A DNA stretch of 64,000 nucleotides, taken from contig CM059624.1 in the NCBI GenBank assembly GCA_030435675.1, positions 1,822,769-1,886,768 on the forward strand, given 5' to 3'. A program made the translations under genes and the position numbers. Origin of the DNA: Steinernema hermaphroditum (Eukaryota; Nematoda; Chromadorea; Rhabditida; Steinernematidae). Every line of letters begins with the position of its first letter. Position 1 is the first letter of the stretch. Under the pieces are notes generated by a model, which saw only the letters and a list, made by a program, of their open reading frames with translations, did not search any database and had not been told where the DNA came from. Positions 2,914 to 53,354 of the stretch are shown here, piece after piece.

Positions 2914-3110
2914 TCTTCGGTCTTGGACTTCTACGCCGATCATTCATCGTTGCTAATCTAATCATCGTTGAGGCGAATATCGAATTCTTCGTTTGCCATC
3001 ACTTTTGTCTTCGCCTAGTTGATCTTCAGCCCAAACTTTCGCGTCTCGTCGCTCAGCTCATTTATCAATTTTTGGAGCTCCTTCCAAACCCGGCTGCGCG
3101 CGAATTCGCG
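2914..3110 (-). mobile_element. Decayed LINE reverse-transcriptase fragment 1
   Basis: On the minus strand one frame reads KELQKLINELSDETRKFGLK followed by IN, a stop, then AKTKVMANEEFDIRLNDD. The pattern 'GLKIN-x-KTKVM' is a hallmark of non-LTR retrotransposon reverse transcriptases, just downstream of the catalytic FADD box. The in-frame stop after GLKIN shows it is dead. About 130 bp are nearly identical to fragment 2 at 3727. Confidence 0.7.
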
Positions 3111-3139
3111 CCCTCCAGGTACTAAAAGCCAATTAGCCT

Positions 3140-3245
3140 GTAGCCCTGCGGGCGGCAAGATTGGCGCTCATGGATAGGGCTGAAGTTGGGGCCAAAAAAC
3201 AGTAGCCCTGCGGGCGGCAAGACACTATAGCCCTGCGGGCGTAGC
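3140..3245 (+). repeat. Three copies of a 19-nt repeat
   Basis: The string TAGCCCTGCGGGCGGCAAG appears twice, near 3140 and 3204, and a third time in shortened form near 3228. The spacing is irregular, so this is not a CRISPR-like or simple tandem array. Confidence 0.6.
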
Positions 3246-3395
3246 ATCGCCAGAGACATAGTAGAAGTAGAGCGCTACCATCTCAGCTGCTTATGTGGCT
3301 CATTGCGAACGTTCTCTGTTTGTAAGCGGGCGGTGTCGGGTTCGGTTTCCCTCGGGGTCCTTATTTTGTGTGGGTGTTTCCGCCGTGCGCACGGA

Positions 3396-3423
3396 AAAAC
3401 ACACACACAGACACACACACGCA
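3396..3423. repeat. AC-rich microsatellite
   Basis: A short imperfect run of AC dinucleotides interrupted by AG. Confidence 0.8.
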
Positions 3424-3726
3424 GACCAACGGACCCGTCGGTTCTCCGTTTATATATAGGGGATGAAGGATGTTCGAGTTGAGAGTTGTGTGTCGACACG
3501 TAATGTCGACATTCTGCCACCGTTGAATTGGCAAAATCTTCTCGTCACACTCTTATCGCCCGTCTACCTTGCCGGCGAATGGTTGGTGGCCTCCATTCTG
3601 AAATCAGTGTTGATCGGTTACGACGGTCCACGGCCCGATTCGCCATGTTCCATGCGAATTTTCAGTTTCTTTTCGTTGCTGTCTCGCAGACGTCTTGGTT
3701 ACTCCTCGGAGCCAGTCGTTTGTTCT

Positions 3727-3980: not shown

Positions 3981-4302
3981 GTTTTGGACTTATTACGATG
4001 CATTCTGACTTACAAGAAATGTTCCTTGTCAGGTCCGTTTAGATATCATATTCAGAGGAAACCCTGGTAAGACCATGGTACCAGAAATCGTGTTTATGTC
4101 GATCACACAACATCGCGTGTTTTGAGTAGGGGTGGATAAGTCTATTTCTACTAGCTATCGAGAGATCAAACGCTATGGTGCTCTTCTTAACCTTATGCAC
4201 TACATCTGCGATCCTGGCTTTTCTCGAACCACCCAAACTCCTCCCCACATTACCTCACCTTATGTGAAAACGTTGAGTAGTGCAACAAGTCATTCGAATA
4301 CC

Positions 4303-50113: not shown

Positions 50114-50122
50114 GTCACATCG
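50114..50122. repeat. Target-site duplication, left copy
   Basis: GTCACATCG here is identical to 53112-53120. Confidence 0.85.
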
Positions 50123-50290
50123 GGGTTGGTATAAAACATGGATATGGGTATGGATATGGATATGGGTGAGTGGTATAAAACATGGATGGGTGGGAAAACA
50201 TGGGTAAGGGTGATCGTGGCGGGACCCAATTCATGGGTAGCGACAACTTTCACTTTTTTTCACTTTTTTTCCATTTTCCCCATGGATCGT

Positions 50291-51364
50291 CATGGGTAGT
50301 CATGGGTAGCCTCTGCATCGTCATGGGTAGTCATGGGTAGCCTTTAGAAGGTCATGGGTAGCCTCTAGAACGTCATGGGTAGTCATGGGTAGCCTTTAGA
50401 AGGGCATGGGTAGCCTCAGGAACGTCATGGGTAGTCCATGGATGGGTGGGAAAACATGGGTAAGGGTGATCGTGGCGAGACCCAATTCATGGGTAGCGAC
50501 GATTTTCATTTTTTTCGCTTTTTTTCCATTTTCCCCATGGATCGTCATGGGTAGTCATGGGTAGCCTCTGGAAAGTCATGGGTAGCCTTTGGAAAGTCAT
50601 GGGTAGCCTTTAGAAGGGCATGGGTAGCCTTTAGATCGTCATGGGTAGTCATGGGTAGCCTTTAGAAGGGCATGGGTAGCCTTTAGATCGTCATGGGTAG
50701 TCATGGGTAGCCTCTAGAACGTCATGGGTAGTCATGGGTAGCCTTTAGATCGTCATGGGTAGTCATGGGTAGCCTCAGGAACGTCATGGGTAGCCTTTAG
50801 AAGGGCATGGGTAGCCTTTAGATCGTCATGGGTAGTCATGGGTAGCCTCTAGAACGTCATGGGTAGTCATGGGTAGCCTTTAGATCGTCATGGGTAGTCA
50901 TGGGTAGCCTCAGGAACGTCATGGGTAGCCTTTAGAAGGGCATGGGCAGTCATGGGTAGCCTCAGGAACGTCATGGGTAGTCATGGGTAGCCTTTAGAAG
51001 GGCATGGGTAGCCTCAGGTACGTCATGGATAGTCATGGGTAGCCTCTAGAACGTCATGGGTAGTCATGGGTAGCCTTTAGAAGGGCATGGGTAGCCTTTA
51101 GATCATCATGGGTAGTCATAGGTAGCCTCAGGAACGTCATGGGTAGTCATGGGTAGCCTTTAGAAGGGCATGGGTAGTCATGGGTAGCCTCAGGAACGTC
51201 ATGGGTAGTCATGGGTAGCCTTTAGATCGTCATGGGTAGTCATGGGTAGCCTTTAGAAGGGCATGGGTAGCCTCTAGAACGTCATGGGTAGTCATGGGTA
51301 GCCTCAGGAACGTCATGGGTAGCCTCAGGAACGTCATGGGTAGCCTTTAGATCGTCATGGGTAG
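50291..51364 (+). repeat. Left minisatellite arm of the element
   Basis: Irregular arrays of a 10-nt core (TCATGGGTAG) alternate with linkers such as CCTTTAGAAGGG, CCTCAGGAACG and CCTTTAGATCG, giving composite units of about 20-30 nt. At 50434-50545 a partial copy of the inner terminal repeat lies inside the array. Confidence 0.9.
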
Positions 51365-51424
51365 TTTTACATAGGTGAAGTATGGCTTTATGTAGTTGAA
51401 GTATTACTTGCGAGATTCCATAAT

Positions 51425-52567
51425 TTAAGCAATACGTGGAGCCAGGGAAGGCATATAGATTATTGTACGTAAGTGACCTTCCTTGCTCTGTCCTTCTTGC
51501 AATGTTGGCGATGCCATTCCATCGTAATGGAACCATTGATTCTTGATCAGTACGGAAGCCGTGAAATGTCCTTGTGACCATACTGTCACACCGACTAAAT
51601 CAAAGCGACGGTCAAGAACCTGTACAAGATCATATTGAAATCTGCCGGTTACAATCGCGAACCTCCAGTTGTCTTGGTAAGCGCGCGATCTCTTGGGTGG
51701 GACACTTTGATGGTGTGACGTCTATAGGCAGAATCCATGGAATGTCCCGCTCAAACCGTTGTGACACGACGTATTGAGGTAACTGACAGCATTGACTTCG
51801 GCGAGGCGTATGCTTAATAGCCTTTAGCAATACATTGAGTGTGTTTGAATGGTGTATCCTTCAAACATGTCGCAATCTCCATCGCATCCAAGTTGACTTC
51901 GGACAGTGAATACATGAGCAGCTCCAAGGTGTTTCAGAAAGCACTCGAATTCGGTTTCCGTCAGGTCAATAGGATTACTCTTAAGCGATGGGTAAATCTT
52001 AAATCATTTGCAAATTGTTGAAAGTGTACCTTGTCAACGTTGGCTCTGTAGCATTCGTCCAGAATGAACTGCTTGCCTTGGATAATTGACTCGTTCTTGA
52101 TCATTCCAATACCGGTTCTCCAAGCGTTTTCAAACGGGTGATCAGTGTCAATGTTCTTCAGCCACTCGCGATCGTGGTCGAGGCGAATGCAAATCATCGC
52201 TAATACATTATCAAGCGGGCATGTACCTGTAGCATTTTTACCGCCCCAAACCGGCACCGCGGGAAGTGTCGCCTTAACACTTAGTCCTTGTAGCGCAACC
52301 TCAAAATTGCCGAGCTGAACGACGGCAGACATATTTTGAAAGCTTGTTGAAGATTTCAGATCCTCAACTGCTGAAGAAAACCAATCAGGCATTTTGTACT
52401 GATCCGGTAGAAAACGTTCTCGAAAGTTGGGCTCTAAAAATAAAAGGCATGATGATCTGAAAATGGTGGGAAGAAAACGCACCACTGCGTTCACTACCCG
52501 ATAAATCCGGTTCTTCCTGAATAGCGGGCAAGCTGTTTCTATATCGACGAAGCGGTACTTTCTGCAT
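51425..52567 (-). CDS. USP/USPL1-like cysteine protease carried by the element
   Basis: Exons 52483-52567, 52030-52433, 51834-51979, 51663-51795 and 51425-51619 join in phase to 320 residues without a stop. A Cys box (NATGTCPLDNVLAMI, Cys near residue 100) and a distal His box (WSQGHFTASVLIKNQWFHYD, His near 274 and Asp near 289) are arranged as in ubiquitin- or SUMO-specific peptidases of the USP and USPL1 kind. Between them are Cys-rich segments (GCDGDC, QCCQLP, SKCPTQ) that could bind zinc. PWILPIDV precedes the His box, where USPs have their 'PP..L' strand. Likely role: removal of ubiquitin or a relative from target proteins. Whether it serves the transposon or was captured from the host is unknown. 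An acceptor near 52610 could add a few upstream residues. Confidence 0.6.
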
Positions 52568-52640
52568 TTTCGGCTTCTTGACTATATTGGATCCGAGAAA
52601 CGTTCCTACGCTAAGATCAGAAAATAGGGAGTCAGAGCCA

Positions 52641-52942
52641 GGTCTTCTAAAGGCTACCCATGACGTTCTAGAGGCTACCCATGACTACCCATGCCCTTCT
52701 AAAGGCTACCCATGACGTTCCTGAGGCTACCCATGACTACCTATGACGATCTAAAGGCTACCCATGACTACCCATGACGTTCTAGAGGCTACCCATGACT
52801 ACCCATGACGATCTAAAGGCTACCCATGCCCTTCTAAAGGCTACCCATGACTACCCATGACGTTCCTGAGGCTACCCATGACTGCCCATGCCCTTCTAAA
52901 GGCTACCCATGACGATGCAGAGGCTACCCATGACTACCCATG
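52641..52942 (-). repeat. Right minisatellite arm of the element
   Basis: The same 10-nt core in reverse orientation (CTACCCATGA) with the same linkers, but about 300 bp against about 1,070 bp on the left. Confidence 0.9.
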
Positions 52943-53111
52943 ACGATCCATGGGGAAAATGGAAAAAAAAGTGAAAAAAAGTGAAAGTTGTCGCTACCCA
53001 TGAATTGGGTCCCGCCACGATCACCCTTACCCATGTTTTCCCACCCATCCATGTTTTATACCACTCACCCATATCCATATCCATACCCATATCCATGTTT
53101 TATACCAACCC

Positions 53112-53120
53112 GTCACATCG
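53112..53120. repeat. Target-site duplication, right copy
   Basis: GTCACATCG, identical to 50114-50122. Confidence 0.85.
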
Positions 53121-53310
53121 TTCATAAACTGGTTCACAAATTCGATTGCTTGAACGAATTCGGCGTCTACGTCGTTTTTAAGAAAGTCCATGTCATAAAA
53201 AAACATTTGGCTTCTTCGGCTTCTTCCGAAGTTCGTCGACTGTTAATGTTCGGTTTCCAGTGCACGAAATACTGCGACATGAGTTACGGTAGCAGTTGCT
53301 ACGGTAGCAG

Positions 53311-53354
53311 TTGCCATGAGTTACGGTAGCAGTTGCTACCGTAACTCATGGCAA
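53311..53354. repeat. 44-nt near-perfect palindrome
   Basis: Arms of 21 nt (TTGCCATGAGTTACGGTAGC plus A) are exactly complementary around a 2-nt centre. Two further TACGGTAGCAGTTG units lie just to the left (53284-53311). Confidence 0.9.

Follow-up and report, generated by a model that had tools for sequence, protein, structure and literature searches.

This locus raises the question of how a ubiquitin-type protease gene came to lie at the centre of a small mobile element with minisatellite arms, and whether it belongs to that element or was carried off by it. The window, i.e., the whole stretch of DNA analysed here, is 64 kb long and corresponds to C4:1822769-1886768 of the 90.6-Mb assembly of the nematode Steinernema hermaphroditum, and the mobile element occupies positions 50123-53111 of it, starting with GGGTTGGTATAAAACATGG and finishing with CCATGTTTTATACCAACCC. 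The reading favoured here, to which a probability of roughly 70% is given, is that the element is an internally deleted and likely non-autonomous foldback copy, resembling Mutator-like elements (MULEs) and Rehavkus, and that its central gene would be the 3' remnant of a transposase gene encoding a predicted DDE domain, a SWIM-type finger, a PHD-like finger and a domain of likely ubiquitin-specific protease (USP) type.

Boundaries and arms of the element

The element is flanked by a perfect 9-bp target duplication, GTCACATCG, with the left copy at 50114-50122 and the right copy at 53112-53120, as an initial annotation of this stretch had already proposed. The inverted termini, estimated there at about 168 bp, are identical over 148 bp and extend to 197/198 bp with a single 1-bp indel (left terminal repeat at 50123-50319, plus strand; right terminal repeat at 52914-53111, minus strand), and a length of ~197 bp agrees with the long terminal inverted repeats of MULE/Mutator elements. 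The termini merge into arrays of 10-bp (CATGGGTAGT) and 21-bp units in both arms, the left one at 50285-51365 (plus strand), interrupted at ~50430-50545 by a second copy of the subterminal block, and the right one at 52645-52950 (minus strand). The inverted minisatellite arrays noticed at first are thus real, the left arm holding 59 core motifs and the right arm 19, mostly spaced by 10 or 21 bp. All of the exact CATGGGTAG motifs present on both strands of the window (74 of 74) lie within the element, and its long inverted arms of short tandem units are those of a foldback-type element. In Drosophila, foldback elements (FB/NOF) likewise have 9-bp duplications and arms built of short, modular units in tandem.

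Regarding the insertion site, a 69-residue open frame on the minus strand crosses the pre-insertion site when the flanks of 50114-53120 are joined, and the element may therefore sit in a host exon. Just beyond the right end, TACGGTAGCAGTTGC recurs at 53278-53351 in short copies, tandem as well as inverted, which do not resemble the element arms.

Copies across the genome

The 159-bp terminus has at least 44 matches in the genome and the 19-bp terminus has 27 exact matches, so the possibility of single-copy ends, named at first as an outcome that would speak against the proposal, is answered in the negative. Allowing up to two mismatches, the 19-bp terminus is matched 92 times, compared to 22 times for the reversed control pattern. 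Both flanks were read for 12 copies, namely the window copy, e2 to e8 and four short pairs of ends (L095 to L098), with eight single-ended matches with one flank standing outside this count. Perfect 9-bp duplications, as in MULEs, flank seven of the 12, and their 9-mers vary between copies: besides the window copy, these are e2 (C3:15574604-15576608), e3 (C1:9477802-9481228), e4 (6.3 kb; C3:7816777-7823067), e5 (19 kb; C3:6327229-6346279) and the two-ended L095 (73 bp; C5:2185975-2186100) and L097 (94 bp; C3:3851900-3852046), both of which hold no gene and are possible minimal mobile units of the family. Meanwhile, e6 (C2:17613869) and e7 (C2:9626837) have no recognisable right end, e8 (C1:10074277-10077259) and the short pair L098 have no 9-bp duplication, and the 9-mers of the short pair L096 agree at 7 of 9 bases. 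A general lack of 9-bp duplications in other copies, the second outcome feared at the beginning, is accordingly not what is seen.

Empty sites were sought for the five large copies having perfect duplications by joining the two flanks of each, with one 9-mer kept, and matching them to the genome. With the e3 flanks, 33 places align across the junction (23 of them at 90% identity or more, the best at 99% with 300 of 300 bases aligned), and with the e4 flanks 5 places do so, all at 92-95%; these matches are counted from alignments and not base by base. Both copies therefore look inserted into interspersed repeats, other copies of which look to preserve an uninterrupted paralogous empty site. No junction-spanning match was found in the genome for the joined flanks of the window copy, e2 or e5.

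The e5 copy (loci L013, L026, L062, L092 and L016) seems to have swallowed other elements, including an open reading frame (ORF) of FLYWCH-MULE, or Phantom, type. In addition, a PF10551 search of the genome gave 54 MULE-domain matches, among which the ORFs of L067, L072, L080 and L085 begin in tandem-repeat peptides; as several MULE ORFs do so, satellite-associated MULEs may be common in S. hermaphroditum.

The central gene and its counterpart in a longer copy

The reading frames of the window copy lie on the minus strand at 51428-52567, and parts of them are also present in e2, e3, e4 and e8. When further copies are examined for both a DDE transposase and the protease, as the initial annotation had suggested, a predicted DDE region and the protease are found together in e4, and the protease in e2, e3 and e8. 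A single strand of e4 encodes, upstream of the protease, the stretches LTYDTQ, VFITDQEF, CWNHVKRN and SNAAESMN, then CSCKVTGCAH, followed by CCC...C..C..WKC...C..C and by the Cys and His boxes on the same strand, which corresponds to the order of a predicted DDE domain (D/D/E and CxxH), a SWIM-type finger, a PHD-like finger and the protease boxes. The NCBI protein of this copy, P0003 (853 aa), possesses the DDE and SWIM parts in one frame, with candidate catalytic residues D139, D204 and E318 and the CxxH from residue 221, and bears the UniRef name SWIM-type; it terminates at a stop immediately before the PHD-like finger. A frameshift in the e4 transposase was considered and rejected, as the P0003 model splices an intron there. 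In e8 and in a divergent relative, L053, the frame runs uninterrupted from the linker into the PHD and Cys box, and the linker-to-protease stretch of e8 matches that of L053 at 32% over 167 aa (E 2e-31). With this frame open in both, the DDE-SWIM and PHD-protease parts are read as one ancestral fused gene.

Taking the e4 gene as the reverse complement of C3:7817640-7822284, the window copy is 99.8, 99.2, 100 and 100% identical to it in segments of 467, 368, 342 and 45 bp, respectively, and lacks bases 1-2738 (DDE and SWIM), 3107-3688 (the PHD-like finger) and 4089-4178 (inside the protease region), while e4 is without a short protease piece that the window copy retains. Judged by these alignments, what remains at the centre of the window copy is the 3' part of a transposase gene belonging to the family itself. 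The intact five-exon protease gene originally described is hence replaced by a deletion remnant relative to e4, for which the NCBI model P0001 (233 aa) has no His box. Concerning the link first proposed between a MULE-like or foldback element and a ubiquitin-type protease, the element is mobile, multi-copy and linked to the protease; however, the protease appears not as a separate gene, being part of the transposase gene.

Along the minus strand, the remnant opens with the first exon of P0001 (MQKVPL.., 52484-52567), which in e4 forms part of the linker after the SWIM finger. The Cys-box frame comes next (52030-52434, with TCPLDN at 52207-52224), where the junction at ~52281/52282 is that of the 582-bp deletion by which the PHD-like finger is gone, followed by a protease frame from SNPIDL to CDGDC (51836-51979) shortened by the 90-bp deletion relative to e4. 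The remaining protease frames comprise one with CC and PWILPI (51663-51821), having a 43-bp GT..CAG intron before the last exon, and the last one (51428-51673), which holds the Asp as well as the His box (GHFTA, 51557-51571) and is probably intron above ~51635. A short GT..CAG intron occurs at the same position in the window copy, L053 and L058, and L057 is without these signals there.

A DDE-SWIM query of the genome retrieved seven matches, three in e4 and four distant fragments, with a close DDE sequence only in e4. One decayed relative, L093 (C1:15143800-15150300), has a 37% match around the catalytic Glu, and no second complete transposase was found in the genome. The e5 copy was rejected as an autonomous source, as its FLYWCH-MULE ORF sits among apparent nested debris.

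The PHD-like finger and the type of the protease

The best 21 of the 27 PDB hits of the PHD profile, A1, are PHD-bearing proteins, and ING2 is at the top (E 0.0015); the protease rows of this profile contain intron residues, its PHD columns being unaffected.

Regarding the protease, the boxes follow each other in the family alignments as Cys box, CxxC finger (CC in some rows), His box and Asp/Asn. The Ulp1 fold has the order His-Asp-Cys. An Ulp1-type protease (C48, as in Kaonashi), with which the initial annotation had drawn a parallel, was rejected, since here the Cys precedes the His and Asp and the PDB profile hits are USPs. With the intron-free C-terminal protease profile A6 (six rows), 15 PDB hits are obtained at E up to 10, of which 13 are USPs, including all of the best 12 (USP12, USP46, USP47, USP8 and 6tbm_Q; E 0.028-0.88), and the CxxC finger, a P-x-IL segment, the His and the Asp are all in register in the top alignment. 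The USP12 hits of another alignment, A4 (E 0.042), were discounted because its protease rows contain short-intron residues.

The His is followed by Phe in six of six alignment rows, and proteases that cleave after Gly-Gly, among them the USPL1 family, are described as being marked by an aromatic residue following the catalytic His (PMC7391069, in the part available). In the two rows measured, in which both boxes are present, the Cys-His spacing is 192 and 193 and the His-Asp spacing is 15, compared to 220 and 16 as calculated for USPL1 from its residue numbering in the available part of PMC8983731; the window copy has lost part of the region between the boxes. Thus, the family has in common with USPL1 (C98) and the USPs (C19) the Cys-His-Asp order, the CxxC finger in between, the aromatic residue and a nearly equal His-Asp distance, and differs from USPL1 in its Cys-His distance. 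On the strength of residue order and profile hits, the protease is likely a USP-type ubiquitin protease.

Selection, relatives and origin of the protease part

The PHD-protease part evolved under purifying selection. Comparing its codons in e4/e2 with the older e8, dN is 0.047, dS is 0.217 and omega is 0.216 over five pieces (the row of piece P5 including five intron codons), and neutral simulations (n = 500) give a mean omega of 0.87 with a minimum of 0.46. In comparison to L056 (~55% identical), pN is 0.29-0.30 and pS is 0.85-0.98 in two exons.

The protease is matched at 33 places in the genome, 21 of them in six family-ended copies (the two-ended window copy, e2, e3, e4 and e8, plus a single-ended copy on C5) and 12 distant. 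Among the distant ones, nine of which were fetched, only L058 is shown to lie inside an element; this one is 1.2 kb long (C4:16371314-16372490), is flanked by a perfect 9-bp duplication (GGCTGAAGG) and has satellite arms rich in GC, with ends that have GTATAAA in common with the window family. Profile searches of the genome gave no C98 matches and 20 UCH_1 matches, all away from the protease places, and homologue searches with the family proteins found only S. hermaphroditum proteins (2, 1 and 5 hits). On balance, we regard the protease as an old component of the lineage rather than a single capture accident.

That accident would be a capture in the style of Pack-MULEs, where a foldback element, its transposase lying elsewhere, took up a deubiquitinase-like gene of the host and the two are only incidentally linked. 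It is considered unlikely, as the protease of e4 shares strand and order with the DDE-SWIM gene, the frame is open from the linker into the PHD-protease part in e8 and L053, most protease matches (21 of 33) fall within family-ended copies and the distant L058 lies between other satellite ends with a 9-bp duplication. However, gene capture is a known property of MULEs, the window copy viewed alone fits this explanation, a complete fused copy is not in hand and some of the 12 distant matches could be host genes.

A nesting of elements, in which an unrelated transposase-protease gene was inserted into a satellite-armed foldback whose arms are moved by another MULE (e.g., of the Phantom type, as in e5), seems quite improbable, even if a FLYWCH-MULE ORF lies between the ends of e5 and Tm1 of Meloidogyne is described as a foldback family with a FLYWCH-MULE (PMC3169594, in the excerpt at hand). 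The protease gene recurs within the same ends in the five two-ended copies and beside the single-ended copy on C5, and its relative L058 sits between different satellite ends. Meanwhile, the e5 ORF is more likely a nested passenger, because it is found in a 19-kb stretch with apparent reverse-transcriptase-like debris. Lastly, it is very unlikely that the protease remnant of the short copies acts as an element-encoded regulator, such as a competitor titrating partners, with derivatives that keep it being favoured: four derivatives (the window copy, e2, e3 and e8) do retain the protease 3' end with the DDE part lost, and NCBI predicts proteins from the window copy, e2 and e8, but e6 retains a piece of the 5' end instead, L095 and L097 have their 9-bp duplications with no gene inside, and the protease is itself partly deleted in the window copy and in e4.

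Several observations weigh against the favoured reading of a DDE-SWIM-PHD-USP transposase gene in a MULE/Rehavkus-like foldback family. A stop immediately ahead of the PHD-like finger and a deletion in its protease leave e4 incomplete, and none of the copies examined carries the whole fusion. The Pfam matches of the e4 piece all fall below the cut-off (IS66, E 0.0005; ISL3, E 0.003; MULE, E 0.015), which leaves the sequence-based assignment of the DDE part weak, and IS66 and ISL3 are listed for the whole P0003 and MULE is not. A MULE profile built from 26 of 30 MULE loci of the S. hermaphroditum genome is colinear with residues 158-290 of P0003, having the second Asp and the CxxH in register, but this alignment is suggestive only, because 31 of 2000 shuffled controls score as high. 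The PHD-like finger has a Phe at the position of the zinc-ligand His of ING. As for the protease, none of the individual USP hits of A6 is better than E 0.028, no PDB hit is obtained with the longer intron-free profile A5, and no Pfam USP (C19) or C98 model matches the family proteins, which is also a difference from USPL1. Two structure predictions, the approach recommended at the outset for placing the protease in a family, were uninformative (mean pLDDT 36.7 and 32.7). Moreover, one of the five selection pieces gives an omega of 0.70 alone, and five of the 12 copies are without a perfect duplication.

Comparison with known systems

Ubiquitin/SUMO proteases in Mutator elements are already published for plants, hydra and lancelet, and the animal link suggested as new by the initial annotation is not new in principle. 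Drawing on excerpts of the sources cited in this section, Ulp1 is present in Mutator elements of hydra and lancelet (PMC2836005), an ovarian tumour (OTU) domain is listed for the cnidarian MULE MuDR-6_HM (PMC6446971), and Ginger1 and Mutator transposases have been aligned over their Ulp1 and PHD domains (PMC2836005). The Ulp1-bearing Mutator elements of hydra, lancelet and plants, including Kaonashi, and the OTU/Ulp1-bearing Ginger1 resemble the present family in having, within the element or its transposase protein, a cysteine protease of ubiquitin/SUMO type, sometimes with PHD; however, theirs is Ulp1 (C48) or OTU and not USP, and the transposase of Ginger is integrase-like (PMC2836005; PMC6117577). 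The Trichomonas vaginalis protein XP_001314237.1 combines Peptidase C19 with a DDE transposase in one protein, differing in that it comes from a protist, is of the transposase_11 type and has no foldback arms mentioned in the excerpt (PMC2836005).

Rehavkus, described from arthropods and annelids as an outgroup to ordinary MULEs, is characterised by 9-bp duplications, a PHD finger and a minisatellite (PMC6446971). The S. hermaphroditum family likewise has 9-bp duplications and a minisatellite adjoining the terminal repeat, and its transposase protein may include a PHD-like finger. However, the minisatellite of Rehavkus stands before the 3' terminus and no protease is named in the excerpt, compared to arrays in both arms and to a SWIM-type finger and a USP-like domain in the present family, Rehavkus being compared by description only (PMC6446971). 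Tm1 from root-knot nematodes, a Mutator/Foldback family, is similar in its composite repeat-bearing termini and mostly 9-bp duplications; it differs by a Phantom-type FLYWCH and MULE transposase, by a repeat motif of ~14 bp and by the absence of the word protease from the text available (PMC3169594). Pfam finds no FLYWCH or MULE match in P0003.

The combination of a MULE/Rehavkus-like transposase with SWIM, PHD and USP parts in a nematode foldback appears to be new. No title or abstract beginning among the matches listed describes this family or a USP domain fused to a MULE- or Rehavkus-like transposase, most subscription journals and Repbase lying outside the search, so that absence from print is not established.

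Proposed mechanism and significance

Regarding the mode of action, the transposase would be made elsewhere and act in trans, binding the termini and probably the repeated CATGGGTAG units of the arms, then pairing both ends, excising the element and inserting it with a 9-bp stagger. The arms may multiply a binding motif for the predicted transposase, by analogy with Galileo, an unrelated foldback-like element for which such arms are reported (PMC3688188, in the part available). The fused PHD-USP tail could tether the complex to histone tails, where the USP-like part may remove ubiquitin, or a relative ending in Gly-Gly such as SUMO, from the transposase or from chromatin or repair proteins at the site. 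The removal of ubiquitin would stabilise the complex and ease transposition. As copies such as that of the window keep their ends, they could still be moved in trans.

A stronger version of this reading, judged less likely than not, is that the family is an old nematode foldback lineage with a single chromatin-reading DDE-SWIM-PHD-USP transposase whose protease is needed for transposition. In that case, the protease would strip ubiquitin from the transposase or from target nucleosomes, and the satellite arms would load many transposase copies; such an enzyme would deubiquitinate itself and differ in this from the transposases that carry Ulp1 or OTU.

The locus points to a foldback family in a nematode for which there is a candidate source of transposase, together with two-ended derivatives as small as 73-94 bp. 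Provided that the fused USP-like part is active, this family would have integrated the removal of ubiquitin into a cut-and-paste transposase of MULE-like type, through a fold other than the Ulp1 and OTU folds reported for Mutator and Ginger elements, and the question of an active role of ubiquitin/SUMO proteases in transposition, raised in the available part of PMC2836005, would become directly testable.

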